From IMG/VR virus record IMGVR_UViG_3300031772_000185, positions 1-31,112 of that record: a stretch of 31,112 nt of DNA; one strand, given 5' to 3'. Below are positions 1,362 through 23,893 of this stretch, in pieces. Source of the DNA: a virus. Position numbers and translations under genes: made by a program. Under the pieces are notes generated by a model, which was not told the origin of the DNA, did not search any database, and saw only the letters and a program-made list of their open reading frames with translations. Position 1 is the first letter of the stretch. Each line of letters begins with the position of its first letter.

Positions 1362-1579
1362 CAGACCCCCCTACGGCGAAGAACATAGGGTGCATGCGTG
1401 CTTTGGTAGGCTTTGATGGCAGGCCACCCTTGCTCCACTACATCGCTGGGCACGAGCCAGCCCTGGAGTCGATAATACAGCTTCCCGTCGATGTACTCGG
1501 TGCCGCCACATCGGATGGGCTGCACCATGCTCGCCGCGAGCCGCATCCTCTCTTCGTGGGTCAACTTGGCGAGGTCCAT
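1361..1579 (-). CDS. Small protein of unknown function between two wedge genes (72 aa)
   Basis: This 72-residue protein starts MDLAKLTHEERMRLAASM (a short helix) and continues with a beta-like GGTEYIDGKLYYRLQGWLVP segment and a basic C-terminus (LRRRGV). It is locked between its neighbours by one-base stop/start overlaps (TGATG) at both 1579 and 1361, so it is very probably a real, translationally coupled gene. It has no recognisable family. Its conserved position suggests a minor baseplate component or an assembly factor, but that is inference. Confidence 0.6.
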   Translation of the reverse strand: MDLAKLTHEERMRLAASMVQPIRCGGTEYIDGKLYYRLQGWLVPSDVVEQGWPAIKAYQSTHAPYVLRRRGV

Positions 1580-4500: not shown

Positions 4501-5079
4501 GGCGTTGAGCTTGAAGTACCCCGTGGAACCGCCCGCCGGTGCCGTCGCAGCATAGAAATTGAACCCAATGGGGGTCGGGGTGTCTACGGTGACAAGGAGG
4601 CCCGTTTGGAAAGGGGTGATGCTACCGCTGCCACTTTGACCGCTCGGGACAATGAGCGTGGCCGTCTGGGGCTTCCCTGCCAACAAGTCTACGGAGTTGC
4701 GGCGGCGATGGACTCGGATGCCCGTCGGAATGGGGGCTGCGCTGCTGTCAATCGACCGTACCCTTGTGATCGCGACCGTCGAGATGGCCGAGACACCACC
4801 TACGATGTCGATCGTGCGGAGCTGGATGGTGTTGAGTCCCACCTCCAAAAGCAGCCCCGTGGGGAACGACGCCAAGTTAGGGACCGTGAAGGTCTGGAGT
4901 GCGAAACTGACCAGCGTTGGATCCGAAACGAAGGCGGCCCCGTTGATCGACACCTGGATGACTGACGTGTTGACGTCCACCGTCCCCACAATGGTGGTGG
5001 AGTCTTGGTTCGTCGTGAAGACGAGGTTCGTCGTGAACCCAGAACCGTCGCGAAGAGCAATTTGGGGCGCTGTTGCCAT
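1579..5079 (-). CDS. Baseplate J-like wedge protein (gp6/gpJ family), enlarged
   Basis: At 1166 residues it is about three times longer than P2 gpJ. The J-like signature lies in the middle: a TDLVIPAGTFVTS strand (about 473-485), GGAGNRPAGTIN (534-545) and VFGDDRESNADLSSR (562-576), the usual 'agN.paGtI ... GG.D.Es..dlr.R' pattern. A second conserved part near the C-terminus (ELNKKVIGQGIAQSDVIHAI) matches the end of the fold. Known J/gp6 proteins form the ring of wedges around the hub and trigger sheath contraction. Residues 1-455 are extra: an Ig-like beta segment (about 35-105) and a fibronectin-like stretch (around 295-325). The ATG at 5079 lies three bases after the gp25-like gene stop and the stop overlaps the next start. 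Confidence 0.85.
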   Translation of the reverse strand: MATAPQIALRDGSGFTTNLVFTTNQDSTTIVGTVDVNTSVIQVSINGAAFVSDPTLVSFALQTFTVPNLASFPTGLLLEVGLNTIQLRTIDIVGGVSAISTVAITRVRSIDSSAAPIPTGIRVHRRRNSVDLLAGKPQTATLIVPSGQSGSGSITPFQTGLLVTVDTPTPIGFNFYAATAPAGGSTGYFKLNAKPILTSTVFEEDVLGTLDDFAVWDNIDHNTVRIRVTEEDGFGNELAVRLDSFHDTSTLAGRLRFQSTTDNFVLNEFVTFNHIRTGAPGTLNSDQFSNVSNNDPLYYVITGVYFDQTTNTEIETPFSQEVLGTPLVLDTSIRDLPGRNQTQIVTDYINSVQRVNTEISLIPGSTTRDINVDPFASEAERIWFLVDFVHRSQSFLTLLAIDNVSGSGISDPVASSAYKQALKAAVGYTSDDTVQSLIDQQFDKLAANDNVSRLAGRPSVGQVVIYTPTKPTTDLVIPAGTFVTSDADATTGIPAQRYRIGGSFVLPVVGAEAFFNFNTKRYEITADIVAENIGGAGNRPAGTINSILGVSGVSAVNTEATVFGDDRESNADLSSRAILGFASVDTGTEGGYAATAAAELGVIKAKIVKSGDSLMMRDYDDVRHKHIGGKVDIYIQGLRERQVSEKFAFTFDIARDIQIQIIDLTNLIFRVLDSRVTAQTPIIEILNNPLQGLGVHNVTSGLDYDLTGVIIVDYQTFQINTSIAQPPTFIDDIINADYRFRVINQFLFTLQPVRRVISVVGEVAGPLDPANNYQLYKTDDPLITGESTIALDNLSIIQFGGKPSGDTITINDEPHTLIGFVQEPLDSIGINTATIKVFNAPRTIQYNGPGSALPDYDVVEGTPTTPAKIVRTSSSAIDNGLAVSVDYVHDENFTVTYVINDLLQALQQIINNKRHVTADVLVKQAIENQIDIETTVQLNKGATKDKTDPAVRSNVSLELNKKVIGQGIAQSDVIHAIDATPGVDFQVVPFARMAYADGSRKLREAVLSTFVRVGSLDIGGNRVFLLTNPLQNPTIDGGGLITEHKGVFQDDVSLTLSSALTNVGQNPKQAYIIGYTGAVIAGYSDDATLLAAGFLPDQLAAERLRRTANHVAIALSGAGLPPDDPSNHAYQASYIINKDSRSHDIVAADVEFIDLGNFTITYREAT

Positions 5080-9336: not shown

Positions 9337-12300
9337 TTACGACCCCTGTACGGTGAGGAGTTTGATGAGCTGGTTCAAGATATCTGCTTGCGCCTTGATT
9401 CGATCAGCCACGGCACGCTGCTCTTTCACGAGGTAGCCTGTCTCCTGGTTGATCCGGGCATCAATCCACGAATACCGCTTGTCATAAAGGCGATCCGAGC
9501 CGGTGAGTGCCTTCTGAATCTTGGCGATCGGACCCGTCCCTGGGTTGGTGAGGTAAGCCAACCGCGTCTGAGCCTGCGTGGTTCGGGTATCGAGGTCCAC
9601 GGTAAGAATGCCGCGAGCAAAGGACGCCGGGTCCGGTAGGGTTACCAAGAGCACGGGAACGGGTGTGTTGACGAGAGCCTGGAAGGCAAGCGTCTGCGTC
9701 GTGAACGTTTCGTTCGCCGCGAGGATGCTGAAGATGTCCTGGAAGGTCATGAGACCCGCCCCGAAGTAGCTCACGATCTGGTAGGTGATTCCGGCTCCGG
9801 CTACTGGGAATGGCGTCTGAACGGTGATCTGCGTTGGGGAGTCCACGCTCGCGATGGAGTAAATCCCTGCGTTCGTTCCCGTCTGGATGTAGACGAGATG
9901 AGAAGTGTTCACCCCAGAGGTGATGTAGTTCGCGGTGATGTCCGTGAGCTGAGTGAGGACCGTAACCGACCCATTCACACTCGACACGATGGTCGTGAAG
10001 ATCGTGGCAAGGAAGGCGAGGAGGGCCGCCTGCTCAGAATTGGGGTTCGTGTTGATGGTTGCCAGCTCGGTCGCCACCGCTGAGGAGATCGCGGCAAGGA
10101 TGGTCAGCGGACCACCGTATGTGTCGAGGGGATTGTCGATCCTGTACGTGCCACCGATGACGGGACTCGAAAAAGCGGAGTCTAGCGTGAGTTGGGTATT
10201 CGAGACCACCGTAACGATTTGCCGGCGTTCCGCGATGTTAGGCCCGCTTGTCATCACAACAGTCCAGCCAATCTGCGCAGTCGTCGTGAAGAGGGCGAGG
10301 GCATCCGTGAGGGTTGTGCCCGCCAAAGTAGCGGTACCCGTCACAGTCGTTGAGCTGACAGCGATCGTGTAGCTGAACCCGGCATCCTGAACCACGAAAG
10401 GTGAGTCGACCGTGATCGTGTTGACGCCAACTACTGTGATGCGTCGGAACTCCGTGGCCCCATTGAGCCCTGTCAGGATACGTACAAGGTCGTGGACTTG
10501 AGGGAGTGGAGCGGGGAAAGAGGGGTTTGCATCGGTGATAATGGTCGTGGTGACGTCGAGAGACCCCGTCCCCAAGTAGGGGGCCGTTGTTGCGAGACGG
10601 ATCGTACCCGTCACGGGCTGCTCCGCTGTGATCTCCACATTGAGGGGGCCGCCGCCTGCCGCCGTCAACTCCCCGTCAAACGTCGGGCCGACAATGGGGA
10701 GCGCTTGATCCCTATCATCATTCGTCGTCCCCCCGTAGAGAGCGGGGAACTTGTCGGGTGCGGTAGCGCTGATGTTCAACCCTGCCCCAAAGACTTGGAG
10801 GATGTCCCCGTTTTGGACTGGGAAGGTATCGAAGAAGGGGCCGAAGGGCCGTACCAACGGGGGAAGAATTGAGAGGATCCCGTTGTATGGGAAGCTTCTT
10901 TCTGAGAAGAGAAACTCACCCGTCGAGAGGTTGAAGTCCAAGTCGTGGCCGAAGCGGTACTGCATCATGTACGCGCCATTCGTGCCGGCGGCAGGAGGGT
11001 AGTCACCCTTCTCCAACGAGGTGTTCGCGTCGCTCGGGGAAAGGTAGATCGTCGACCCGGCCGGAAGGAAACCGGGATCAGGACCCGGTGTCGGGGAGTG
11101 CGCCCCCACGCTGATTGTCACTGTCGTCGCGGTGAAGCTGGAGACGGTGGCTGTATCCGAGTCGAGGACGAAGAAGCGTCCCTGGGGATCCTCGATGACG
11201 ACACGCATCTGGTTGACGAACGAGGGACGCTGGAGGGCGTCGTTCGTGCCGTTGGCGTTGTCGACGGTGAAGGTGGTCGTACCGTAGGGGTAGTCGAACT
11301 GGATCTGAGCCCTGGGCGTCCGCTTGAAGGCGACAGTGGGGAGAGACGAGAGGTTGTTGAATGTCGCCTTCGCGATGGCATCCCCATCCCCCGTACTACC
11401 CGAGACCATAGCCGGAGAGGTCGCGAAGAGGTCGCGAAGGTTCTTGAAGAACCGGCTGTACGGGCCTTGGAGGTAGATGGCTTGGGTCGTGCCCGAAGGG
11501 AGCGGGAAGGGGGAGACGACCAGCTTGTCGTCGATCTGATTGGTCACCGCCGCCGGGTTCGGACGAACAGGGTTGGTGATGTTGCCGTCGAACAGGAACC
11601 GGCCGTTGTTACCACCCACGACACGCCCATCGAGCGCATGGAGGGCGTCTTCGAGGTAGTTGACCGCATCGTTGAAGAACTTGAGGCTTCCGCGAGCAAC
11701 GAGATCCTGGTTGGCGAGATGACCCTCAGGGAAGAAGACGGATTCCCGACCCTGTTGGAAGAGCTGAGGCGAAGACGAGTTCGACGTCTGCGGGCCGCTT
11801 GACGGAGAGCCCGCTTGAGCTGCCGCCTGGATCTCTTGGGCCACCTCCCCCTTGAAGTTGGTGAGAGTCTCAACCCGGTAGTAGAAGTTGTCCGGCGAGA
11901 AGACGTAGTAGTTGGCTTGGAGGATTTGGCCTTCCAAGCCATTCGCTGCCGTGGGGGCAATCGAGAATGTGTACGAAGCCCTGACACGAGGGCCTGCACC
12001 CACGATTCGATGACCCGTGTAGAAGATCGACACCTCTTCTTTGGGCCGCAAGGCTGGGGTGTACTTGACGGCACCCGCGTCGTCGATCTGGTAGTCCGTA
12101 GGGGCCAAGAGCAGGATACCCGCCTCACCCTCTGCCCGTCGGAACAGCGAATAGGGTTGGGTGAGAACAGGCGCCTTGCTCGTCAAGGCCGTCGTCGTCC
12201 CTTCCTCGAAGATAGGACGAACCGTGTACTGGAGGATTTGGGGCCCGTGCATGTATTGGCGAAGTGCGTTCGCCGCAAGGGTCACCTCAGTCTTACCCGT

Positions 12301-15300
12301 GTCCGCATGGAATTGGGCCCCCGTCACCTGAATGAAGTCAGAGAACGAGGAGGTACCATCCGTGAAGTAGACCGTCACCCCAGAGCGGTACGAAGACGTC
12401 CGGTCTCCGAAGACGAAAATCTTGTTCATCCCCCTCGCAACGGGGTCGTAAGCCTGTAACTCGGGAGTGAAATAGGCCGGGAAGAAGAGAAAGCTCGTGA
12501 GCCGCGTCGGTCCTGACGAGACGAAAATCTTGGGATCCGAGTACGAATTCTGGAACGTCTGCGCCCCAAAGAGCGTGACGGTCGTTAGATCGGCTCCCAC
12601 ATCGTACGAAGATGCACCGATGAGATAGACCTCCTCCTGCTCGATCCGCATGAGAAAGCCAGCCGGGAAGTTGGTGGTCTGGTCCCCATGAACGACGAAG
12701 AAGTTGTCGCCCTCGGTGATGTTGACGAGAGCTGTCAGCATCGGGGGTTGAAGAATCGTTGTCGTCTTCTCTCCGCCAAGAGCTTCGAAGACGAAGTAGT
12801 CCACGAGAACGCGCTCGCTCGGCCCGATGATCGCCCCGTGCGGGATAACGTCGGTGACCTGAGCGTCAGGAAGGAACGTTACCGTGAAAGCAGCGAGATC
12901 CACGTTGCATTGGACCCCGGTTTGCTGCGGTCGTCCTCCTCTGAACACAGCCGGAGGCGGGTTGTCCGCGACCGTACGCCCCGTTGGGTTGAAGCTAACT
13001 GTATTTGTGGGTGTCGGGTGTGGTTGGCTCTGCTCTTTACGGACGAGGAACGTTGCCCTCTCTTGTACGAGGGGTCCGGCTGGCGTTGGGGGTGTCGTCA
13101 CCGGAGGGGCCGGTGTGTAAGTGACGAGAACCTCCTCGAACGAGAGCATCCGGTCCGTGAACTGAATGAGGCCGAGCTGTGGGGAGAGCTTGTAGTCGAT
13201 TCGAGGCGTGAGCTTGCGGATCCAGTAGATTTGGAGCGCAGGAACGATGTCTGCGTTGCTGAAGTTGAGGTTGCCGGTGACTTGGCTTACCTCGACAATG
13301 CCGGACAGAAGGGTGACGGGGTTGGTGAACGAGCTGTCGTTCGGGACCGGGTTCACCGACGTAGATAGCGTATTCAACCCAAAGCGAAACCGGGAAGTCC
13401 CAATCGAGGAGATCGGGATGCGGAGGCGGCGAGTGATCGAGTACGTCGCTGCCGTGAGGAACGCGAACGGGAGGTTCGAGGCGACCGTCAGCTTGTTCTG
13501 CTCAACGAACGTGACCGTTCGAGTCGTACCCGTGTCGGGACCCGAGTTGAGGAGGATCGTGTCGCCAACCTGGACGCCTGACGTGATGAAGTTGGTCAGC
13601 GGATCTGAGAGTGTGAGGAAGTCCGGGAAAGTCGCGTTCTGGGTAGCGACGATGACCGTAGCGTTCTGGATGACGCCGATCCCACGGATGCGTTCGAGCA
13701 TCGTACTCGGGTCGATGAGCACCACCTCTTGGAAGAAGCGATCCGCTAGGATCTCTTTGCCTCTCTCGATGGTGTACGCGGCGTTAGTGACCGATACCGG
13801 CGCTGGAGGGCCCGTCAGGCTCGGGGTCTGCGCCACAACGTCCGTTGTGAGCTGCGTCGGGGAAACGACCGCTGCGACCGTGTAGACGCCCTTGGCAGCC
13901 GAGCTGGAGATGACGATGAAGTCTCCAGGCTGAACCCCGGCAGCCACAAAGCCCCCTGCCGCGTCCGTGAAGGTCAGGCCAGAGAACGAGGCGGTGGCCC
14001 CGGTGGCGATGGTGAGGCCTTGGGTTGTCGTGAAGGTGGCGAGCCCAGGGGTGGGATCAAGGAGAACGTCTGTCCCGATAGTGAGAGGGTTGTAGATCCC
14101 CGTGCCGGTCCCCGTCTCCAGCTCTAGGACGACATTTCCAGGGAGGACGAGGGGGTCAGGGAGTGCCACCGTCCCCGATGACTGGAGGAGGGGGATGAGA
14201 GTTTGGTTCTTCCGCTGAGCGTAGTGGAACGTTCGAGCGTCGAAGTCGATGAAGTAGCCCAGGCCCGGTGGGGGTCCAGGCACATCGAGGCGATTGAGCG
14301 TGCCCGTGAAACTGCCCGTCCCTTGGACGACGCTCACTGTAAGCGGGTAGGCCAGGGCATCGATGGGAACCGAGGGTAGGAAGACCTGAGGTGAACCGAT
14401 GATAGGGCTCGCCCACACGGCGTTCTGGACTGCGTAGATCGTCGTGACGTCTTTGGTCGTGCTGCTGGCGTCGAGGTTGACCGGCGTTCGGAAGAGCCTG
14501 ATAGAGACGCCGTGATCGATCACGAGATCGCCAAAGACCACCTCGACAGGTGAGCCTGTGTAGATGGCCCGATCCGAAACGGAGAACTGAACCGCCCCCG
14601 TACCAGGGTTCACCTGGACCTCGTTCGCCTTACCGACCGCATCGAAGGTTGTGGTCCGCACAACCTGGGCGAACTGCACGTAGGGAACGTGCGATGGAAG
14701 GTCGAAGATGATGTCCCCACCATCGGGAGGGAGTCCCACGATGGGCGTAGGAGCGTCGATCAGCCCGATGCTCTGCCGAGGTAGTTGAAGAGCAATCGCG
14801 AAGAGGGTGCCGTCGTAGTAGATCGGGAACCCGAGGTGGGCCGCAATGTCTGCGGAGTGGAACTTGAGCCGGCCCGTGTTGAGGGCCCACTCGACCGTCC
14901 CGGCTGCCGGGTCAGGGGAGAACCCCGCCTCGTTCGGCCTCTCAATGGGTGTGAGGTAGAGGCTGAATCCGATGCGGATGAGAGGGAATTGACCTGTCCC
15001 CGGAATGGGGTTGAGGAGAAGGACCGGGGCGTTGATGAGCCCGATGTCCCCGGTGGATTTGTCGTAGTCGAAGTACGCTTGCTGCTGGTACCGGAGCACC
15101 TGGCCGTCGTACGCCACCAGGTCTGAGGGGTTCCAGTTGAGGTTCCCTGTCGCTAGCGACAACTCCGTCGTGCCCGCCGGAGGTGCTCCGAAAGCCCCAT
15201 CGTTGAGCACAAGAACAACGGTCTGGGTGTTACCGCTCCCAACGGTCCCGATAGAAAGCCGGAAGGGGGCGTCTGCAAGGGCTTGCAGAGGAGCTGGGAC

Positions 15301-15642
15301 AGCCTTCAGACGTTGGGTGTTCGAGTTGGGGCCGATAGGGCCCGCTGTGACGATGGTGCCGCCTGGAAGGGGCTTGAAGCGGCCGTCCCGGCTGGCGTAG
15401 TCGAAGCGACGGACCACCTCGTTCTTCGTCCAGCCAAACGAGGCGTTCCGAAGAAGACCCCCCACGCCCTCGTTGGTGACGAGGGTGAGGTAATCAGCAC
15501 GAGGATTGGCTTCGGTGTTGGGGTACGCGATCCCGAACGCGACGGGGTCGGAGATGAAATTGGCCGGAGAACTCGTGAAAGGCGAGTTTGACTGCCCCAC
15601 ACGCGGGGGCTCCAACACGTAGCCGCGAATGCTGAATCCCAT
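9337..15642 (-). CDS. Giant modular beta-repeat baseplate/tail protein (2101 aa)
   Basis: This is the largest gene in the window and is almost entirely beta-rich (Thr, Val, Gly, Pro). I see three repeat classes. A 'GVQ.GD.v...sG...G.y.i..V.spTqLt...Y.I' unit occurs at residues 553-626, 673-737, 1693-1761, 1767-1836 and 1890-1957. A roughly 90-residue unit with a 'TG.L.f...Di' strand is tandem at 113-378 and reappears around 740-830. A 'FVVHGDQTTNFPAG' / 'IFVFGDRTSSYRSG' unit occurs at 978-1042 and 1072-1138. A helical segment (about 1320-1345, then 1395-1430) interrupts the beta part and a coiled coil (2036-2097) ends it. It follows the spike and triple-repeat genes and precedes wedge genes, so it is probably a very large baseplate-peripheral or fibre-like protein. 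No enzymatic motif was found, and there is no good Shine-Dalgarno before the ATG at 15642. Confidence 0.75.
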   Translation of the reverse strand: MGFSIRGYVLEPPRVGQSNSPFTSSPANFISDPVAFGIAYPNTEANPRADYLTLVTNEGVGGLLRNASFGWTKNEVVRRFDYASRDGRFKPLPGGTIVTAGPIGPNSNTQRLKAVPAPLQALADAPFRLSIGTVGSGNTQTVVLVLNDGAFGAPPAGTTELSLATGNLNWNPSDLVAYDGQVLRYQQQAYFDYDKSTGDIGLINAPVLLLNPIPGTGQFPLIRIGFSLYLTPIERPNEAGFSPDPAAGTVEWALNTGRLKFHSADIAAHLGFPIYYDGTLFAIALQLPRQSIGLIDAPTPIVGLPPDGGDIIFDLPSHVPYVQFAQVVRTTTFDAVGKANEVQVNPGTGAVQFSVSDRAIYTGSPVEVVFGDLVIDHGVSIRLFRTPVNLDASSTTKDVTTIYAVQNAVWASPIIGSPQVFLPSVPIDALAYPLTVSVVQGTGSFTGTLNRLDVPGPPPGLGYFIDFDARTFHYAQRKNQTLIPLLQSSGTVALPDPLVLPGNVVLELETGTGTGIYNPLTIGTDVLLDPTPGLATFTTTQGLTIATGATASFSGLTFTDAAGGFVAAGVQPGDFIVISSSAAKGVYTVAAVVSPTQLTTDVVAQTPSLTGPPAPVSVTNAAYTIERGKEILADRFFQEVVLIDPSTMLERIRGIGVIQNATVIVATQNATFPDFLTLSDPLTNFITSGVQVGDTILLNSGPDTGTTRTVTFVEQNKLTVASNLPFAFLTAATYSITRRLRIPISSIGTSRFRFGLNTLSTSVNPVPNDSSFTNPVTLLSGIVEVSQVTGNLNFSNADIVPALQIYWIRKLTPRIDYKLSPQLGLIQFTDRMLSFEEVLVTYTPAPPVTTPPTPAGPLVQERATFLVRKEQSQPHPTPTNTVSFNPTGRTVADNPPPAVFRGGRPQQTGVQCNVDLAAFTVTFLPDAQVTDVIPHGAIIGPSERVLVDYFVFEALGGEKTTTILQPPMLTALVNITEGDNFFVVHGDQTTNFPAGFLMRIEQEEVYLIGASSYDVGADLTTVTLFGAQTFQNSYSDPKIFVSSGPTRLTSFLFFPAYFTPELQAYDPVARGMNKIFVFGDRTSSYRSGVTVYFTDGTSSFSDFIQVTGAQFHADTGKTEVTLAANALRQYMHGPQILQYTVRPIFEEGTTTALTSKAPVLTQPYSLFRRAEGEAGILLLAPTDYQIDDAGAVKYTPALRPKEEVSIFYTGHRIVGAGPRVRASYTFSIAPTAANGLEGQILQANYYVFSPDNFYYRVETLTNFKGEVAQEIQAAAQAGSPSSGPQTSNSSSPQLFQQGRESVFFPEGHLANQDLVARGSLKFFNDAVNYLEDALHALDGRVVGGNNGRFLFDGNITNPVRPNPAAVTNQIDDKLVVSPFPLPSGTTQAIYLQGPYSRFFKNLRDLFATSPAMVSGSTGDGDAIAKATFNNLSSLPTVAFKRTPRAQIQFDYPYGTTTFTVDNANGTNDALQRPSFVNQMRVVIEDPQGRFFVLDSDTATVSSFTATTVTISVGAHSPTPGPDPGFLPAGSTIYLSPSDANTSLEKGDYPPAAGTNGAYMMQYRFGHDLDFNLSTGEFLFSERSFPYNGILSILPPLVRPFGPFFDTFPVQNGDILQVFGAGLNISATAPDKFPALYGGTTNDDRDQALPIVGPTFDGELTAAGGGPLNVEITAEQPVTGTIRLATTAPYLGTGSLDVTTTIITDANPSFPAPLPQVHDLVRILTGLNGATEFRRITVVGVNTITVDSPFVVQDAGFSYTIAVSSTTVTGTATLAGTTLTDALALFTTTAQIGWTVVMTSGPNIAERRQIVTVVSNTQLTLDSAFSSPVIGGTYRIDNPLDTYGGPLTILAAISSAVATELATINTNPNSEQAALLAFLATIFTTIVSSVNGSVTVLTQLTDITANYITSGVNTSHLVYIQTGTNAGIYSIASVDSPTQITVQTPFPVAGAGITYQIVSYFGAGLMTFQDIFSILAANETFTTQTLAFQALVNTPVPVLLVTLPDPASFARGILTVDLDTRTTQAQTRLAYLTNPGTGPIAKIQKALTGSDRLYDKRYSWIDARINQETGYLVKEQRAVADRIKAQADILNQLIKLLTVQGS
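9772..10566 (-). repeat. Three copies of a ~68-residue beta unit near the C-terminus of the giant protein
   Basis: Copies lie at 10360-10566, 10135-10344 and 9772-9975. Each ends with a Y-x-I strand (SYTIA, TYRID, TYQIV) and carries a central 'V..Vs.tqlTld/V.TPF' element, for example QIVTVVSNTQLTLDSAF and YSIASVDSPTQITVQTPF. The match is at protein level; the DNA copies are strongly diverged. Confidence 0.65.
13432..13986 (-). repeat. Two further copies of the same beta unit in the first half of the giant protein
   Basis: Copies lie at 13765-13986 (AAGVQPGDFIVISSS, VVSPTQLTTD, AYTIERG) and 13432-13626 (TSGVQVGDTILLNSG, TFVEQNKLTVASN, TYSITRR). They share the 'SGV..GD.i.i.sG' opening with the downstream copy at 9772-9975 (TSGVNTSHLVYIQTG). 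Confidence 0.65.
14509..15306 (-). repeat. Tandem ~90-residue beta units at the N-terminus of the giant protein
   Basis: Residues 113-378 contain three successive units. Recognisable anchors are 'D/NAP' openings (ALADAPFRLS, IGLINAPVLL, IGLIDAPTPI) and a late 'TG.l.f...D' strand (ATGNLNWNPSDLV, NTGRLKFHSADIA, GTGAVQFSVSDRA). The period is close to 90 residues. Confidence 0.55.
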
Positions 15643-15657
15643 CCGATCAATCCAATC

Positions 15658-16233
15658 TCATATGACGAACCCGAAACCGACCCCAGCTCCGCCGGCCGGA
15701 GAAGCGGACCCGACAATAGGTATAGGCATAACGAAACTCTGAAAAACGATGTCGAGCCCGATGCCGATCGCTGAAGCAAGCTTAATCGAGCCGTCGTTAA
15801 CCATCTGTACAGTGGCGAATCCTGCGATCATCGCAGGAACAGCCGAGCTACCTACGACACGCATGAGCCCGGTCCCAAGCCCGATGCCCGGATGAACGAC
15901 TTGCACGATAGCGAGAGCAGCGAGTCCGGCGGCAATCCCGTTGGCTACACCAAGCGCATTCAGCGGTGCCATTGGCCCGAGAATGCCCATCGAGGCGTAA
16001 CCCACGAGGATCGACGAGTACAGCAGTGGAGGCGGCACGATGAGGGGTGCGGTCGTGTTCCCAGCCCCAAGGGAACCTGTATCGATCGAGGTGACCTTCG
16101 CGAACGTGCCGAAAAAGGTGCACACACCCGTCGCGATACCGAGCGCGAGTTTGGGCATCCCGGTCCCAATTTGAAGCGTCGAGATGAGGTTGACCGCGAT
16201 AAGCGGCGTAAGAGCTGAAGGATTGAGGGGCAT
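15658..16233 (-). CDS. Hydrophobic triple-repeat protein next to the spike (191 aa)
   Basis: This 191-residue protein is rich in Ala, Gly, Ile, Val and Pro with almost no charge. It consists of three internal repeats of about 60 residues (6-62, 68-121, 130-188). Each has a hydrophobic helical pair containing LALGIATGV, NALGVANGI or LASAIGIGL, followed by a Gly-rich turn (GSLGAGN, GIGLGTG, GGAGVGFG). The Gly pivot positions are 36, 99 and 159. The gene starts 13 bases after the spike stop and ends 15 bases before the giant gene, with no clear Shine-Dalgarno, so translation is probably coupled to the spike. A threefold-repeat protein encoded next to a trimeric spike suggests a tip or adaptor comparable in role to PAAR proteins. 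A membrane-active role is the alternative. Both are inference. Confidence 0.65.
   Translation of the reverse strand: MPLNPSALTPLIAVNLISTLQIGTGMPKLALGIATGVCTFFGTFAKVTSIDTGSLGAGNTTAPLIVPPPLLYSSILVGYASMGILGPMAPLNALGVANGIAAGLAALAIVQVVHPGIGLGTGLMRVVGSSAVPAMIAGFATVQMVNDGSIKLASAIGIGLDIVFQSFVMPIPIVGSASPAGGAGVGFGFVI
15670..16218 (-). repeat. Three internal repeats encoding the spike-adjacent protein
   Basis: Units lie at 16048-16218, 15871-16032 and 15670-15846. They align around L/N-A-x-G/A-I/V-x-x-G (residues 29-36, 92-99, 152-159) with spacings of 63 and 60 residues. The repeat is visible in protein only. Confidence 0.6.
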
Positions 16234-16246
16234 CAGGCGTGCGAAG

Positions 16247-18418
16247 TTAAAGTAGACTTCGGAAGGTGGCAGAGCCCATAAGGGGGAGGGCAGTGATCCA
16301 ACACAAGCTTGGCGTACCAGGAGGCATTATCGGGGCTCCCCGAGCTACACCAAGGACGGCAGCAGGCCCGCCAACAAGCACCTGAAGAGAGGTCAGGATG
16401 ACCGCTACGGGAGACGTCAGGTTGATCGCAAGACCTGCCGTGATTGCAACAGCAAGGCCCCCCGTGATGGCGACTGCGCCGGCCCCGGCAGTGATAGCCA
16501 CGGCTCCGGCCCCAGCCGTCATCGTGATGCCACCGGCTCCAACCGTGACCGCGTAACCTCCAGCCGCAACTGCTGTAGACATCGCCCCGGCTGCCACGAC
16601 GATCGAACGTGCCCCCGCGAGGAGATTCTCGATCAGGCCTCCCGCAAGAATCGTCGAGACTTTTCCGCCCAACACGATGGTCTCCAGGACGGCCAAGGCG
16701 TACTGGTACTGGCTCTTGCCCGAGCACATGAAGTCCATCTGCCCAACGTTTTGAGAGGCGCCCGAGTGAGCGTTCAAGTTCCAGCGATCACTCATAATGG
16801 CGTACGATCCGTTGACCGTTGTGGCCTTACCGCCGCCGACGTTCTGAACGATGTCACCCGAGGTCGCGACGTACTTGTTGCCCTGGTGGTCCTCGGTCCA
16901 CGCGAAGCCATCACTCTCCGTGTCCTGAGGACCGACGGTAGAGAAGTTCATCGATGAGTGGCTTCGGAATTCCAAGCCCTTACCCGCAGCACCGCCACGG
17001 AAGTCAAAGACCGCGCCACCTTCAAGCGTGAGGTGAAGCGCGATGCCATCCGGGGTAGCGGCCCCACAGCGCATTTTCAGGGCGCCATCCATGTTCACTT
17101 CAGCGGAGACGTTCTTGGTCCCTGAGGGGTAACGCTCGACCCTCGACCCAGGGATGTTGACGAAGAGCTTCCCCTGTTTCGAGACCGCCACCGCGAAAAC
17201 GCTGTTGTCCGTAGCGCCACCGACTTGAGGTGGGGGGTTCATACGAAATAGGTAGGCACCCGCCGTCGTGGTCGATTCGAGATCGTCCGTCGGAGCACGT
17301 GGACATTCTTCGAGAGCGAAGATGCCGGGACGGGTCGATTCAAAGTCATCGAAGACCTTGGGACGTAGGACCTTGCCGTATTGCCTCAGCCCCGTCTCGT
17401 TCGACGTGTCGTTACCGACGACCGTGCCCATGACGTGCTCGATGTAGAGCGGCTTGCGGTCCATCAGCAGCCCGTCGATTTCTTCGCGGACCTCCTGAAC
17501 GCAATCGGTCGAGTGGAGCATCTCCATGCGCCACTCGGTAAAGGGCTCGGAGCCACCCCCCGTGTCCGGGTCCTCGAAATTCACAGCGGGTGTTGTGACT
17601 GGGTACGAAACCCGCCTCCCGTTCGAGTACGTGACAGGCGGGAAGGACGTTGTGTCGTTGAAAACGTTGAGGACTTGAGCCGACGCGTTCGTGAAGCGTT
17701 TGAGGATCGTTCGCCCGAAGTAGCGTTCGGGGGCCGCCGCATCCTTGAGGGTCACGCCATCCTTGCGGAAGATGTCGGAGGGAAGGAAGAGCCCGCCTCG
17801 GCGAACAGGACCAGAGAGGCGAAGGACACCCGCCTCGTTCTCAACCCGGTGGATCGACTGCGCGACGATCGCCCGCTCAGCGTCTCGAAGCTCGAAGAGG
17901 TCGCCCGCACGATTAACCATGCGGATGTCCTTGGAGAGCACTAGCTCCGACCCCTCCGAGGACATCCCACCGACGTTGCCAGGACGGATCTTCAGTCGCT
18001 TGTAACGGATCGTCCCGCCGAAGATCGCCTCGAAGAGTTCCTTGTCCTCAGCGTCGACGTTGGTGGGGTCGTCCGGGGTGAGAGGATCAAACTTGAGCGC
18101 AATGCGGTTGCCGACAGGGAGGTAACCGAGGATCACCGCCTCGTGGAGATTCTTGTGCCTTCGACGGTACCCGATGATGACCACCGAGTTGACTTCAGGT
18201 ATGCCCCCCCAAAAGCTACGGGGGCCCGTCATCGCCTGGGTGAGATCGATCTCGTGGCGGTCACCACCACCGCCGGTGATGATCTTCACGTCCGCCTTCA
18301 TCATCAGCTCATCGACGCGTGTGATGAGCCCTATCTTCAGGCCATAAGGATCCCCCCCGGCAACGAACTCTTTGCCGATATGATGCCCGGAGGCGTACTT
18401 GGGGATGCCGCTGTTCAT
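16247..18418 (-). CDS. Central spike protein: gp5/gpV-type OB fold plus octad beta repeat
   Basis: Residues about 1-105 match the OB-fold domain of contractile-tail spikes: YGLKIGLITRVDELMMKADV, then EIDLTQAM, then SFWGGIPEVNSVVIIGYRRR and EAVILGYLP. The middle (105-585) is a large beta-rich insertion unlike simple spikes. Residues 619-682 form an eight-residue repeat of the type G-x-A-V-x-I-T-x (GAGAVAITAGAGAVAITGG), expected to wind into a trimeric beta-helical needle as in T4 gp5. The C-terminus continues with a conserved-looking RGAPIMPPGTPSLCWITALP. No lysozyme domain is visible here; the wall-degrading activity sits in the gene at 21977-23893 instead. The ATG at 18418 has GAGG four bases upstream and lies ten bases after the hub stop. 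Confidence 0.8.
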   Translation of the reverse strand: MNSGIPKYASGHHIGKEFVAGGDPYGLKIGLITRVDELMMKADVKIITGGGGDRHEIDLTQAMTGPRSFWGGIPEVNSVVIIGYRRRHKNLHEAVILGYLPVGNRIALKFDPLTPDDPTNVDAEDKELFEAIFGGTIRYKRLKIRPGNVGGMSSEGSELVLSKDIRMVNRAGDLFELRDAERAIVAQSIHRVENEAGVLRLSGPVRRGGLFLPSDIFRKDGVTLKDAAAPERYFGRTILKRFTNASAQVLNVFNDTTSFPPVTYSNGRRVSYPVTTPAVNFEDPDTGGGSEPFTEWRMEMLHSTDCVQEVREEIDGLLMDRKPLYIEHVMGTVVGNDTSNETGLRQYGKVLRPKVFDDFESTRPGIFALEECPRAPTDDLESTTTAGAYLFRMNPPPQVGGATDNSVFAVAVSKQGKLFVNIPGSRVERYPSGTKNVSAEVNMDGALKMRCGAATPDGIALHLTLEGGAVFDFRGGAAGKGLEFRSHSSMNFSTVGPQDTESDGFAWTEDHQGNKYVATSGDIVQNVGGGKATTVNGSYAIMSDRWNLNAHSGASQNVGQMDFMCSGKSQYQYALAVLETIVLGGKVSTILAGGLIENLLAGARSIVVAAGAMSTAVAAGGYAVTVGAGGITMTAGAGAVAITAGAGAVAITGGLAVAITAGLAINLTSPVAVILTSLQVLVGGPAAVLGVARGAPIMPPGTPSLCWITALPLMGSATFRSLL
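16373..16564 (-). repeat. Octad repeat of the spike needle
   Basis: Codes for residues 619-682 of the spike. Successive eight- to nine-residue units read AVTVGAGG, ITMTAGAG, AVAITAGAG, AVAITGGL, AVAITAGL, AINLTSPV and AVILTSLQ. The DNA shows imperfect 24/27-base periodicity. Confidence 0.65.
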
Positions 18419-18428
18419 TGCGCCTCGG

Positions 18429-21400
18429 TTACTTAATAGTGTTCAGCTTCGCCTGATCGTTGGCGATCTCCTGCTGCAACCGTCGGATGTCAGCGTCGAG
18501 TGCGTTGATCCGACTCTGCGGACTCGGGATGACTGCCGAGTGGGCATCAACCGATGCTTGCAACTCAGCTCGCTGTTTCTGGAGACGGGTCAAGTCTCTC
18601 TTGTCGTTCGCGATCTCTTGGTTAAGCCCCGCCTTCTCCGCGTTCCCCTTCAGCTTACTCCCGAAGTCACTCCAGGCCTTGGAGAGATCGTCGGTTGCCG
18701 TGCTCGCCTGAAGGGCGATGGCATTCGGGTCTCCGACGGCAAAGCGAGCGGGAGCCGAAAACGGAGGCGCAAACTCCGATGGTGCAGGCGGTTCGAACTC
18801 AACATCGGGGTTGGTGCCGTTGGGCCCAGCCCCGCCGGGTCGAAGGTCACCACGGATAGCGTGCTCGTACGTTTGATGAGGGCCATCGAGCTTCATGTAG
18901 AGATCGGTGAGGAATGTCTCGACCCGATCTTGAAGCTCAGGCCTTTTCACGGCGGGGCCCCCCGTCCCACTGGTGGTGGACTCTCTCGTCAACGCACTCC
19001 GCTTCGCTTTGGCCTCAGTGTTATCCTTTTGGGCCAAGTCAATTCGACGTTGAAGGTCCTTGACCTCGTTGTCCGCCCTCATTTTGTCAGCGTTGGTGGA
19101 CTTGGGGTCCGTGAATACCTTAGAAGCTTGTAGGATCGCTTCCGAACGCTGATCGCCCAGTATTTCAATAGCGGCTTGAGTACCAGAGATCGTCCCGTCC
19201 AGTGATTGGGACGCGCCTGCGGTAATAGGTCCGAGTTCTTGGGGTTTCCCTTCTGAATTGACGAAGTTTTGGCCGTAAAGGCCAGTGGTGTCGGAGGACG
19301 ACGTGTTGAGGATCTTCACCTGGTAGCCCACGTTGATGAAGGCCAAGTCCGCCCGACCGATCACGCAGGGGCAGTCATCACCGCCTTGCTTCTGACTGTA
19401 CGCCTCTTTGATCGTAAGCTCCGCGAGCGTGAGCGCACGAGAGAGCTGCCCCGCCTCTACGCTCGCAGCGGTGCCCTTCTGAGCAGGCGACCCCAGAGGT
19501 GCCGTATCGACGAAGGTGTCACCGACGTCGGTAAACTTGACCGCCTTAGTCTCCGGGTTCGTGATGATACCTGCCGTCTGTTGATCCTCAGGAGAAAGCG
19601 TTGCCAACGACGTCGCGGGGTTCGGATACGCTGATTGAATTGTAGTAAGCCCTTGCGATTGGGCCGCGAGTGTCTCAAAAAGGCCGCCGGACAGAGCGAG
19701 TTGCAGGTCGATGTTGGTCTTGTCGTTGACGTTCCCCGTGAGGACGAGGCGCCCGTCTCTGAGAGAGACCCGGCGCCCATAGCGGAAGTGACCGATGACC
19801 TCGAAGCCTCGCTCATCCGACACCGGACGGATCATGCTGGTCTTACCCCGGAGGGTGATGTTCTTGGCCGTGTCCGGTGGATCGATCGTCACGTTCGCCG
19901 TGGGAAGGGTGAGGATCTCCCCGATGACGCCCGCACCATCCATCGAGTTGTCATGCGCGTAGATGTACACACCAGCCGAGTTCAACCCGTACTGGTACCG
20001 ATTCGTCAAATGCTTCTCTTTGAGCCTGTCGGTTGCCGTCGTCGTGAACCTGGTTAGCTCTGCCTCACCTTGTGCGGCAACAGCTTTGGCCCTACCGGCC
20101 GATGCCTTAGAGGCTTGGGGGTTTGGTTTGGTTTTCTCTCCGGCAGCTTCTTTGATACCTTCATTCGCAGGGGCGAATGGCCGCGTGTAGGCCATGACAA
20201 CGTTGGGGTATCCGACGATGCGTCCTGTTTTGGGGTGCCGGAGGACGAGAGGATCGTAGGGGTTGTCTCCACCCGTAGAGGCACCATCAATTGCAGCCTG
20301 AGTCGGAGGGAGCGTGGCCGCGCCTCCAACTTTCAGCTTGAATTGAGCCCCCTTGGAGAGTTGCTTTGAGGTATACGGGAACGATAGTTTGACGTTTTTG
20401 CTGATCTGGGCGGGAGATGGAGTAGTCCCCTTAAATCCGGTCAGATTGATCGTCCCGATGCCTTTGGGTGCAATGAACTTCGACCGCTTTGCCGTGAGCG
20501 TGAGCGTCGTGGACGCCCGACCGCCAAAGGCGATGTTGTGCGAGATCCCCGAGACGTACCACATCTGATCTTTGGGGGCGAGGTAGATAGGGAACCCGAG
20601 ACGCAGCTCAGGACGGAGAGGGATGGTCACGTTCCCCCGGTGCCGACGCGCGTTCAAGCGATCCATGACATCCATCCCATGGTAAAACATGAGCTGGGGG
20701 TCACCGAGGAACTCGGAGTTGTAATTCTGGGAACGCCAGCCGTACTTCCGGAGCAAGTGGTAGTCGGTGACCGAGGTGAACGGAGTCAAGCTTTCATCGA
20801 GGCCGTAATCCGTGGCCCCGTACATGGATCCCTGCATCACGACTTGCGTGACGACCTCGGACTCCGATTCGGAGAGTCCCCATTCGATAATGTCGATGTC
20901 CTGGATCCAACTCACCGGCTTGTTGGCGAGGATGTCCAGGTTGTAGAACGGCGGCTTGAAGACGATCGTACCATCGACGTCCATGTAGAACTCGAAGCCG
21001 GCAGCTTCTTTCGCCGCATGCGCAAGCTCCAACTTCGTCTGGTATTCCGTCTGCCAAAGGTTGATCTGTCCCGCTTGTTGGAACTGCGTACGGAACGCCA
21101 CCACTCCGGGGTCGGTAGGGTCGAAGACCATCTGGCCGCCATCGGCACCACCATTGGCGTTACGCACGGCGGCCGAAGCGAAATGGCTCGGCTTCTCGGC
21201 GGTCCCGGTGTTCCCAACACGACTGTATTCCTGGTTGAGCGAATCACCACGAACCGCAACCCCGTTCGTTCCGTAGAGGAGGAGATTCGACCGGACGCGC
21301 GAGAAGCGCTGCTCCCAGTACAGCATGAGATCGGACAGGGCGGCGTCGAACGTGGGCCGTTGACTTTGCTCTTTGACGAGCGAAACAAGCGAGCCGGTGC

Positions 21401-21977
21401 CGACCAGGACGTCCCCGTACGATTGGAGCGCGAGGCTCCAGATCACGTCGTAGGGGTTCATTCCGAAGTAGACGTTGCCGAAGATGCTCGACCCTTGCTG
21501 CCCCTTGGGCGCCGTATAGGCAGGGTTGATGTTCATCTTGCACAGTTCCCACCACTTCAGGATGTCTGCGCAGTGGATACTGACCGTATGCTCGCCGCTG
21601 GAGTAGTCGTCGGAGACCTCCGTAACGACGCCCCAAAAGATCGGGTAGTACTGGGGGAGCCCTTCGACGAGGTAGTACCCCTTGGCGAAGATTTCGACCT
21701 CCATCATGGGAGTGATGACGGGGTTGCCGTCAAAGTAGAAGTCGTCGATCGTGTGCCTCGGCACCGAGAGACTCAATGAGGCACTGCCCGGAACGCTGTC
21801 GATGCTCAGATCGACCTGGACCGACGTGATGTATTTGTTGAAGTCGAAGAAGCGGTTGCACTGCGGGCAACCGATGACCTCCGCCTCGCCGTTGATGTAG
21901 ACCAACGCATCCGGGGCCGTCACGACCGTCGGACGAGCGTTCGGCTGGAAAGTCCCTGAGAACGGGCTTCTGGCCAT
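18429..21977 (-). CDS. Baseplate hub protein (gp27/gpD-like) with long C-terminal extension
   Basis: This 1182-residue protein has an N-terminal part (about 1-500) showing the gp27/gpD hub pattern: VQVDLSIDSVPGSASLSLSV, then MMEVEIFAKGYYLVEG, PIFWGVVTEVSDDYSSGEHT and VSIHCADILKWW; a second domain ends with a strand TLTLTAKRS. Such hubs form a trimer that connects the tail tube to the spike, which is the next gene. A CPQC pair (residues 37-40) sits near the start. Residues beyond about 505 are an unusual extension with beta segments, a CPC (in DDCPCVIG) and a terminal helical hairpin (about 1115-1182) whose arms repeat QEIAND. The ATG at 21977 overlaps the upstream stop by one base (TAATG). 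Confidence 0.8.
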   Translation of the reverse strand: MARSPFSGTFQPNARPTVVTAPDALVYINGEAEVIGCPQCNRFFDFNKYITSVQVDLSIDSVPGSASLSLSVPRHTIDDFYFDGNPVITPMMEVEIFAKGYYLVEGLPQYYPIFWGVVTEVSDDYSSGEHTVSIHCADILKWWELCKMNINPAYTAPKGQQGSSIFGNVYFGMNPYDVIWSLALQSYGDVLVGTGSLVSLVKEQSQRPTFDAALSDLMLYWEQRFSRVRSNLLLYGTNGVAVRGDSLNQEYSRVGNTGTAEKPSHFASAAVRNANGGADGGQMVFDPTDPGVVAFRTQFQQAGQINLWQTEYQTKLELAHAAKEAAGFEFYMDVDGTIVFKPPFYNLDILANKPVSWIQDIDIIEWGLSESESEVVTQVVMQGSMYGATDYGLDESLTPFTSVTDYHLLRKYGWRSQNYNSEFLGDPQLMFYHGMDVMDRLNARRHRGNVTIPLRPELRLGFPIYLAPKDQMWYVSGISHNIAFGGRASTTLTLTAKRSKFIAPKGIGTINLTGFKGTTPSPAQISKNVKLSFPYTSKQLSKGAQFKLKVGGAATLPPTQAAIDGASTGGDNPYDPLVLRHPKTGRIVGYPNVVMAYTRPFAPANEGIKEAAGEKTKPNPQASKASAGRAKAVAAQGEAELTRFTTTATDRLKEKHLTNRYQYGLNSAGVYIYAHDNSMDGAGVIGEILTLPTANVTIDPPDTAKNITLRGKTSMIRPVSDERGFEVIGHFRYGRRVSLRDGRLVLTGNVNDKTNIDLQLALSGGLFETLAAQSQGLTTIQSAYPNPATSLATLSPEDQQTAGIITNPETKAVKFTDVGDTFVDTAPLGSPAQKGTAASVEAGQLSRALTLAELTIKEAYSQKQGGDDCPCVIGRADLAFINVGYQVKILNTSSSDTTGLYGQNFVNSEGKPQELGPITAGASQSLDGTISGTQAAIEILGDQRSEAILQASKVFTDPKSTNADKMRADNEVKDLQRRIDLAQKDNTEAKAKRSALTRESTTSGTGGPAVKRPELQDRVETFLTDLYMKLDGPHQTYEHAIRGDLRPGGAGPNGTNPDVEFEPPAPSEFAPPFSAPARFAVGDPNAIALQASTATDDLSKAWSDFGSKLKGNAEKAGLNQEIANDKRDLTRLQKQRAELQASVDAHSAVIPSPQSRINALDADIRRLQQEIANDQAKLNTIK

Positions 21978-23893
21978 TATGCGCCCCCTCGGGAGCCCGT
22001 AGAACTACCACGTTGAGCAGCAATATCGGCAGCAATACCTGGAGGCAGAGCAACGTTCGGAGATGGCTGCGGGTTGTTGGTCGGAGTCGAAGACAAGGGG
22101 GATGTCGGACTTCCCGTCGTCGGAGGCCGGAACTGGCCCTGGAAGAACTGCGATGCCCCGTACGGGGTACCTTGCGATGCCTCCAACGGGGAAACAGACG
22201 TGCGATCGAGGAGGAACGAAGCCCGAACCGTGAAGGAGAAGTCGTACGTCAAAGAGAAGGGGACGCCCTCTTCTTCGTTGAGGTTGAAGCTGTCGAACGA
22301 GCCGATGTAAAGGATGTCATCGTAATAGATGTAGACAGACCCCAAGAGGTAAAGACTCTTCGGCTTGGTGCTAACGGCTTCCGTGAGGTCGGAGAGCCAG
22401 ATCCCTCCGTTGTTCTTGTAGATCAACCAAAGCGACAAGAGGTTCTGATAGCTCGCGGAGAACTGCCGAGCTGTTCGCCCGAGACCGGGACCGTTTCCCG
22501 CATCGCCCTCTTGATTCGGGCCGCCGACCGCATCGAGCGAGTAGAAGGCTGCGACCTTCCCTGAGGCTTCGAGCTTGTCTTGCTGTTCACCCCAATGCTC
22601 AACGATGGGTCCGTTACGGCCCCAATTTCCATCGTTGAGGATCTTCTCCAACCCGTTCTTGAACGACGTCGGGTTGACGAGCAGTCGGAGCGGAGGCGTG
22701 TTCTTGATATCGTCGATCCGCCTTTGCAGCTCTTTGATCGTCGCGAGCTGAGCACCCAAGAACTGCTTCCCGAGACCGGTCAGGTTGAGGTTCTTGCCCG
22801 ACGTCTGAGCAAGGTTCTTGGCCGCCTCGCCAGCGTTATTGGACCCATTCCCCTGCCACGCATTCGCCGCTTGTGCGTCCCCCGCTATTTTAGGGACGGC
22901 CTTCGCGGACATACCCAATCCTGAACGTGCTGCATTGATAGCGGCCAGACGGCCGGGGGCCAAGGGTCGCATGCTCGACGCTAGGTCGTCTGGCGTGATG
23001 TAGCCTTTTTTTCCTTTATCGAGACCGATGTTGGCCTTGTACGCCGCCGCTTGCTTCGGGATGCTGCCATCATACATCGAACCGTTGGGGTTGTTGTACG
23101 ACCCGAAATTCGAGCAGTAAATTTGGGCAGCGGTTTTACCCCGCACCCCAACACCCTGCATGTACTTCTCCACCCACTTCAACTGCTGCACATCTGATTG
23201 CTGTTCGTAAGTGGCCCATTCTTCAGGGGACATCCCCAAACCCTGCTTGAAGGTGCCGTCTTTTTGTTTCACCCCTACGGCTGTCGCGAAGGTGAGTTGG
23301 TTCAGCCCTTTAGCGACGGGCTGACAAGAATCTCCTTGGGGGTTGTACGGAGGGAGACCTCTCGCACATTGCTTACCATCCTTGTCACGCCATGCGATAG
23401 CATCTGGGTGAAACCCGCTTTCAGATTGGATCACCTGTGCGAGAGCGTCAGCCTCACACCCAAGACGATTGCTCATCGCCACGAACTGGGGCCAGAAGTT
23501 CGGATCAGAAGACGATTTAGGTCCCATCGGAACCGAGCCCGTCCCCTTAACACCCGATTGATCCACGGAGGTGTCGATCGCCCCCTGCTGCTTAGGTGGG
23601 CCCTCCAAAGTGGCGACTGTGGCCGAACGATCAAGAAGGCGGCCGGAGATGTTCGCCGACGGGGGGATGAGCCCCACTGCGAAAATCTTGACCTCACTTG
23701 GCCTCCTATCTTTGACCGAGGTGAGCGGGATGAACTGCCCGCTCGCTTCATCGTTCTGGAGCTGTAGCGCGGAGTAGAACGTGAGCAGCTCGTAGAGCGC
23801 TGGCTCGTAATAGTCCGCCGCTGCTTCGATCTGCTCGTTGATCGGCTGGTTGGTAGCCGCCGGCTGGTTGGTAGCGTTCGGTGAATTTGCCAT
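21977..23893 (-). CDS. Tail-tip protein with lytic transglycosylase (SLT-like) domain and baseplate domain
   Basis: The protein has 638 residues. Residues about 130-290 look like a soluble lytic transglycosylase domain: helix ADALAQVI, then QSESGFHPDA with the probable catalytic Glu158, then KGLNQLTFATA (195-205) and an ending with YCSNFGSYNNP. It would cut peptidoglycan during injection. Between the catalytic Glu and the GLNQ motif is an insertion with two Cys (176 and 190); Cys146 and Cys260 flank it. Residues 400-560 are a separate domain (LLVNPTSF, VEHWGEQ, LIYKNNGG, YIGSFDSFN, PFSLTYDFSF) also present in the upstream neighbour. N- and C-terminal ends are Asn/Gln/Pro- and Ser/Pro-rich linkers. 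The ATG at 23893 has GGAG six bases upstream. Confidence 0.75.
   Translation of the reverse strand: MANSPNATNQPAATNQPINEQIEAAADYYEPALYELLTFYSALQLQNDEASGQFIPLTSVKDRRPSEVKIFAVGLIPPSANISGRLLDRSATVATLEGPPKQQGAIDTSVDQSGVKGTGSVPMGPKSSSDPNFWPQFVAMSNRLGCEADALAQVIQSESGFHPDAIAWRDKDGKQCARGLPPYNPQGDSCQPVAKGLNQLTFATAVGVKQKDGTFKQGLGMSPEEWATYEQQSDVQQLKWVEKYMQGVGVRGKTAAQIYCSNFGSYNNPNGSMYDGSIPKQAAAYKANIGLDKGKKGYITPDDLASSMRPLAPGRLAAINAARSGLGMSAKAVPKIAGDAQAANAWQGNGSNNAGEAAKNLAQTSGKNLNLTGLGKQFLGAQLATIKELQRRIDDIKNTPPLRLLVNPTSFKNGLEKILNDGNWGRNGPIVEHWGEQQDKLEASGKVAAFYSLDAVGGPNQEGDAGNGPGLGRTARQFSASYQNLLSLWLIYKNNGGIWLSDLTEAVSTKPKSLYLLGSVYIYYDDILYIGSFDSFNLNEEEGVPFSLTYDFSFTVRASFLLDRTSVSPLEASQGTPYGASQFFQGQFRPPTTGSPTSPLSSTPTNNPQPSPNVALPPGIAADIAAQRGSSTGSRGGA
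23843..23875 (-). repeat. 15-base direct repeat at the start of the transglycosylase gene
   Basis: The plus-strand sequence CGGCTGGTTGGTAGC occurs at 23843-23857 and 23861-23875, a perfect copy with an 18-base period. It encodes a repeated ATNQP near residues 7-17 and looks like a recent small in-frame duplication in a flexible N-terminus. Confidence 0.85.

Follow-up and report, generated by a model that had tools for sequence, protein, structure and literature searches.

A hydrophobic three-repeat protein encoded beside the central spike is a candidate non-PAAR spike tip in a clade of jumbo phages

PAAR proteins contain an internal repetition that is able to match threefold symmetry, and the zinc site at their apex is made of three His and one Cys. 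To our knowledge, the spikes of the phages P2 (gpV) and Mu (gp45) have no separate tip protein. In T4, one gp5.4 monomer is found per gp5 trimer, a 3:1 stoichiometry by MALS, and the tip complex is reported not to bind liposomes (PMC7600766). Among gp5-like spikes, conservation drops along the helix but is high again in the final strand, to which gp5.4 binds (PMC4576200). Type VI secretion systems (T6SS) offer two further variants: PIPY tips, without the PAAR motif and the zinc site, have a hydrophobic surface that has been proposed to aid membrane penetration (PMC11883445), and the TMD-bearing prePAAR effectors place hydrophobic helices at the spike tip, together with a PAAR domain and a toxin (PMC7773334). 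A monomer composed of three like units is one way in which a trimer might be expected to be capped.

The stretch of DNA analysed here, referred to as the window, comprises the 31112 bases of a virus record. On its minus strand, genes for a baseplate hub, a central spike, the candidate tip and a 2101-aa protein follow each other in this order (Table 1). The initial annotation had drawn attention to the third of these, as a 191-residue, strongly hydrophobic product made of three repeats of about 60 residues and encoded 13 bases after the spike. The reading frame is real and lies on the minus strand, running through 191 codons and a stop, and the plus-strand reading of the same interval is interrupted by stops. 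The three anchor motifs that had been proposed, LALGIATG, NALGVANG and LASAIGIG, are indeed found at residues 29-36, 92-99 and 152-159, the hydrophobicity is high (GRAVY 1.09), and the distance from the spike stop to the start codon of the candidate tip is 13 nt, as measured in an identical copy of the locus (L041).

Table 1. Features of the window discussed in the text, with coordinates given as positions in the 31112-base record
Feature	Coordinates	Strand	Description
Candidate spike-tip protein	15658..16233	-	191 aa; three predicted helix-helix-strand-strand repeats; very few charged residues
Repeat 1	16036..16221	-	Residues 5-66; predicted helices 5-18, 26-44; predicted strands 45-55, 58-63; contains D51
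Repeat 2	15850..16035	-	Residues 67-128; predicted helices 68-81, 89-107; predicted strands 109-114, 117-128; contains H114
Repeat 3	15661..15849	-	Residues 129-191; predicted helices 132-141, 147-166; predicted strands 168-175, 181-190
Central spike	16247..18418	-	723 aa; OB-like N-terminal domain (about 20-104); C-terminal short-strand repeats, gp5/VgrG beta-helix-like at low confidence
Conserved spike C-terminal tail, proposed tip docking site	16250..16378	-	Spike residues 681-723; from conservation
Baseplate hub	18429..21977	-	gp27-like by a weak PHROG hit; 42% of length homologous to Tunturi_5 gp254, annotated as a tail protein
Tail protein, possible transglycosylase region	21977..23893	-	Weak hits
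2101-aa protein after the tip gene	9337..15642	-	No Pfam match
Baseplate_J / baseplate wedge protein	1579..5079	-	Pfam E 1.6e-13; phrog_6 E 1e-21

The repeats are borderline in the single sequence and significant at the level of the family. Within the candidate tip alone, the best self-alignment score of 51 is reached in 14 of 300 shuffles; the unit pair 1-2 stands clearly beyond shuffled sequences (6 of 2000 reach its score), and pairs 1-3 and 2-3 do not (163 and 282 of 2000). For the family-level comparison, 17 loci were gathered via a first profile search and 72 spike loci via a spike search, giving 56 distinct members, of which one is truncated at a contig end and the other 55 are full-length. 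Aligning the thirds of the protein with hhalign, using boundaries that were picked by eye ahead of the tests, gave E-values of 1.3e-6, 5.8e-4 and 3.8e-5 with 13 sequences (0 of 200 column shuffles for each), and of 2e-9 (1-2), 6.6e-6 (1-3) and 3.9e-7 (2-3) with 55 sequences (0 of 100 column shuffles for each pair, the closest approach being 28.0 against a real score of 29.4 for pair 1-3). A scan of ungapped offsets at the family level, which requires no choice of boundaries, ranked 123 at the top, a result matched in 1 of 1000 permutations, with offsets 60 and 63 ranking next, each of them by itself inside the permutation range. The internal repetition claimed at the outset thus holds up in both family alignments, and the three repeats, with a unit of about 62 residues, are real.

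The same periodicity is seen in the predicted structure. An AlphaFold2 model built from the 13-sequence input is confident (pLDDT 92.5, pTM 0.85), and in it the order helix-helix-strand-strand recurs three times, at the residues listed in Table 1. In space, the three units may form a closed ring or may lie in a line. A Foldseek search of the PDB with this model gave no clear match (best E 0.077), and PAAR chains are absent among the Foldseek and VIA matches listed, which excludes nothing. The best VIA match, a spidroin repeat with a Z of 4.3 and an rmsd of 3.3 over 94 residues, was judged not meaningful. Among predicted viral structures, the best BFVD match is A0A8S5RUZ0, a viral protein of 207 aa (E 4e-3, probability 0.97, TM 0.39), which may be a true distant relative extending the family to other phages. 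The fold is apparently unrelated to those of known tips, and the lack of a solved match is no proof of novelty.

Across the family, the mean GRAVY of the 55 members is 0.90 (range 0.45-1.21), charged residues (DEKR) make up on average 4.7% of the sequence (range 1.6-9.1%, 51 members), a 19-residue window with a mean hydropathy of at least 1.6 is present in 52 of the 55, and helical moments are low, with means of 0.13-0.31. Ten columns are invariant in all 55 members, namely M1 and nine glycines, six of which fall in the predicted hairpins (G53, G56, G58, G120, G175 and G188) and three within or between predicted helices (G23, G86 and G99). His is found at position 114 in 48 of 55 members, and Cys at position 38 in 12 of 55. 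D51 and H114 occupy equivalent hairpin positions in repeats 1 and 2, and all five members that lack D51 have lost H114 as well (Fisher p 6e-6 over 55 rows), with two further members having N114 and still retaining D51. The losses of D51 amount to two events on the best tree, with one independent pair on well-supported branches, and because independent events on the tree are so few, the joint loss is weak evidence. More generally, covarying pairs are enriched about twofold at the repeat offset, with p between 0.002 and 0.15 depending on cut-off and alphabet and uncorrected for descent, and the top of the covariation list includes pairs between hairpin 1 and hairpin 3. Covariation between equivalent hairpins in the alignment is suggestive, and would be in line with threefold repetition.

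The gene is tightly linked to that of the spike. Of the 72 spike loci, 65 extend beyond the spike ORF by more than 700 nt, and all 65 carry a candidate tip gene there on the same strand, within about 1 kb past the spike; since several contigs copy one phage, fewer than 65 of these cases are independent. Pairing with spikes yielded 51 distinct tips. With adjusted start codons, 66 loci could be measured, the additional one having its tip truncated at the edge of the contig. In 33 of these the spike stop and the tip start overlap by 1 nt (TGATG or TAATG), in 21 they are 0-30 nt apart and in 2 they are 31-150 nt apart; a longer apparent overlap in 3 loci involves an unsure choice of start. The gap exceeds 150 nt in the other 7 loci, each with at least one small ORF in between. 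Small ORFs separate spike and tip in L044, L047, L049, L054, L071, L097 and L099. Of the inserts scanned ahead of the tip, the one in L004 and the two in L022 gave no hit in Pfam at E 0.01, and Pfam identifies an insert behind the tip gene in L008 (7800-8528) as an HNH endonuclease. In T4, the gene order is 5, 5.1, segC, 5.3 and 5.4, with the homing endonuclease gene segC between genes 5 and 5.4. In L094 (5989-8145), the spike ORF looks broken, with a first part of 401 aa, through either a sequencing error or a real break. Beyond the tip gene, most loci continue with a long ORF, with similar starts among the loci compared.

The sheath and baseplate genes are those of a contractile tail. By its sequence, the baseplate wedge/J protein is certainly identified. 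The spike of the window is recognised weakly (PHROG E 0.0055, along with weak HMM hits, as also for its relative in L031), and its structural model has a mean pLDDT of 67.6, with a poorly predicted beta-helix part and a C-terminus too poor for a docking model; Foldseek with this model returned nothing below E 0.06. The predicted OB-like fold at the spike N-terminus aligns, among other matches, with P2 gpV (Z 7.1, rmsd 3.6, 75 aligned) and with a Mu baseplate chain (Z 6.7, rmsd 3.1, 73 aligned), matches with which many unrelated OB folds tie. A homologue of the tail sheath is present in all 21 related records, including the query's own, and the sheath ORF of the clade (L143, L144; G001-G020) aligns with the annotated tail sheath of Tunturi_5 at E 1.4e-60. 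The tail of that phage has been observed both extended and contracted by EM (PMC11924767). Pfam sheath models gave a match above cut-off in 0 of 19 and 0 of 21 records, the clade sheath being too divergent for these models and clearly related to that of Tunturi_5, and the Pfam and PHROG scans of the window proteins named no sheath in the 31-kb record.

Conservation of the spike bears on where a tip might sit. The mean frequency of the majority residue is 0.75 at residues 681-720, compared with 0.57-0.65 at 601-680, and residues 61-80 and 141-180 are conserved as well as or better than the C-terminal tail. The consensus of the tail centres on PPGxPSLDWITGLPLxGSA, with a regular expression for this motif matching 40 of 57 spikes and the remaining 17 having variants recognisable by eye. 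The tail is thus conserved as in gp5-like spikes, which leads us to propose that the hairpins dock on the three tails of the trimer. A mirror-tree comparison of the tip with successive spike windows did not single out this region: the partial correlation is -0.02 for the C-terminal window, which several other windows exceed, and the best value, 0.19, is found at 511-555.

The hosts of the gene family are jumbo phages, with contigs of up to 529 kb. From these we picked for length 19 family records of 251-529 kb, with other long family records existing, and searched them for PAAR proteins together with LR745208 and Tunturi_5. The PF05488 PAAR profile had no match at E 0.1 in any of the 21 records, and PF13665 had none in the 19 family records; PF14107 failed to match even in control genomes and is hence uninformative. 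The PAAR profile was positive in T4, phiKZ, G and Atu_ph07, and negative in SPO1, Mu, Lak-A1, LR745206, LR756502 and LR756504. Conversely, the candidate tip profile found nothing at E 1 in any of these ten genomes. Tip and PAAR therefore occur together in no record tested: the tip is found without PAAR in LR745208 and the 19 family records, PAAR without the tip in four records, and neither of them in seven, if a match in Tunturi_5 is taken as chance. That match, seen with both the 13-sequence and the 55-sequence profile (E 1.9e-4 with the latter), was rejected, as it lies on the opposite strand to the annotated gene gp276, runs through a stop and extends over just 58-68 positions of the profile. 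The family records being interrelated and of unknown completeness, we report the exclusion as a pattern and attach no statistic to it. At the scale of the window, the initial annotation had seen no PAAR gene, and a Pfam scan of eight of the encoded proteins found none.

LR745208 (485 kb) contains a distant homologue of 192 aa, which scores 25.6 bits against the family, whereas the highest score among 500 shuffles of its own sequence is 1.8; it was found by the 55-sequence profile, and the 13-sequence profile gave none at E 1. Its gene (L157 1480-2058, minus strand, at about 226.7 kb) lies some 240 kb from the spike gene, behind an ORF that appears HNH-like by eye. The spike gene of this phage is followed, where the tip gene would be expected, by an N-acetylmuramoyl-L-alanine amidase (PF01510; L014 10389-11162). 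As this homologue is unlinked, the statement that the gene is always beside the spike holds for the main clade. Linkage is in any case not required of a tip gene, given that the PAAR gene is not beside an annotated spike in G and Atu_ph07; in phiKZ a gene for a structural protein lies 9 nt away from it. Tunturi_5, whose hub is related, lacks PAAR as well as any convincing tip homologue, so its tail either needs neither or uses something undetected. Further relatives of the family were not found: a tblastn search against isolate phages (one run at E 10) gave no match, which is uninformative since the low-complexity filter probably masks a query so rich in Gly, Ala and Leu, and short peptide patterns retrieved no relative from bacterial and archaeal genomes, an approach that could overlook remote ones. 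Neither Pfam nor PHROG yielded a significant match for the family, a Pfam scan of the candidate tip at E<=1 returning DctQ below cut-off and nothing else, PF05488 and PF13665 included, and no description of the family was found among the titles and abstract starts of the open-access papers listed in literature searches.

Taken together, the repeats, the linkage to the spike and the failure to find PAAR are as one would expect for a replacement tip, and we consider it probable that the protein tips the central spike of a contractile jumbo-phage tail as a structurally new alternative to PAAR. A single copy, with its three helix-helix-beta-hairpin units, would cap the trimer at its blunt end, the Gly-rich hairpins (G53/G56/G58, G118/G120/G122 and G184/G186/G188) presumably facing the three conserved spike C-terminal tails. 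By closing into a ring, the monomer could fit a threefold trimer, as PAAR does, and the hydrophobic helices would then form the leading end, directed toward the target membrane. The pseudo-threefold tip put forward in the initial annotation is in this way partly supported, by the repeats, by the three units of the model, by the linkage and by the failure to find PAAR. The mirror-tree and the one unlinked distant homologue count against it, as do the equal or higher conservation of other spike regions, the tail of Tunturi_5 and the weak recognition of the spike itself.

Compared with known tips, the candidate resembles T4 gp5.4 in being a small protein encoded past the spike, a few genes away in T4 and directly adjacent in most of our loci. 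It differs from PAAR (PF05488) in having no Pfam PAAR match, in being twice as long, with six predicted helices, and in being very hydrophobic; with one His and one Cys in the protein of the window, a site of three His and one Cys could not form within a single copy. PIPY (DUF4150, PF13665) and DUF4280 proteins set a T6SS precedent for spike tips without the PAAR motif, and PIPY tips come closest as a conceptual precedent, although they are predicted to keep the PAAR cone, whereas the candidate is a helix-rich repeat without a PF13665 match. Unlike the prePAAR effectors, it has no PAAR and no further domain in its 191 aa. P2 gpV and Mu gp45 share with our spike the OB-like domain predicted for it, but here the candidate tip is a separate protein.

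The pronounced hydrophobicity allows for more than a passive cap. One could speculate that the protein is a monomeric pseudo-threefold cap with a new fold whose hydrophobic helices insert into the membrane of the host once the spike has penetrated, such that the tip would open, or dock on the inner membrane, rather than just sharpen the spike; we regard this stronger version as rather doubtful. Further removed from a structural tip, and quite unlikely in our estimate, the protein might reside in the membrane, delivered there by the tail or acting like a holin, and form or line a channel in the host inner membrane with no structural role in the spike. The hydropathy windows in nearly all members, the low helical moments and the scarcity of charge would all suit such a function, but a beta-hairpin in every predicted repeat and the invariant Gly motifs would be atypical of a membrane protein built simply of helices, the first helix of each repeat (5-18, 68-81, 132-141) is too short to span a bilayer, and a holin need not adjoin the spike gene in every one of the linked loci.

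The linkage itself, including the overlapping stop and start codons, would also be explained by an assembly factor or chaperone that masks a sticky spike C-terminus before assembly and is absent from the virion. The great hydrophobicity of the protein would fit this role, and the spike tips of T6SS do have dedicated chaperones, Eag and DUF2169 (PMC7773334, PMC11883445). A chaperone would, however, have no need for three like units. It would also leave these phages without a recognised tip, although, as far as we know, the Mu and P2 spikes do without a separate one as well, and we deem this explanation improbable. An adaptor elsewhere in the hub, connecting hub and tape measure, for instance, or holding the protein of about 2100 aa, rather than a distal tip, would agree with the long ORF that comes next in most loci and with a mirror-tree that shows no preference for the spike C-terminus. 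Yet inserted ORFs part the tip from the long ORF in some loci, such as L008, and the fact that PAAR was not found would be left unexplained; such an adaptor therefore strikes us as very improbable.

If the protein is indeed the spike tip, PAAR and PAAR-like cones would not be the sole means by which a single chain caps a threefold spike, and a clade of jumbo phages would use an unrelated, helix-rich and greasy tip instead. A tip nearly devoid of charge would give a direct test of how the tube of a contractile phage meets the inner membrane. Since the family has gone unnamed in Pfam and PHROG, it may also serve as a marker for the annotation of spikes in huge phages.
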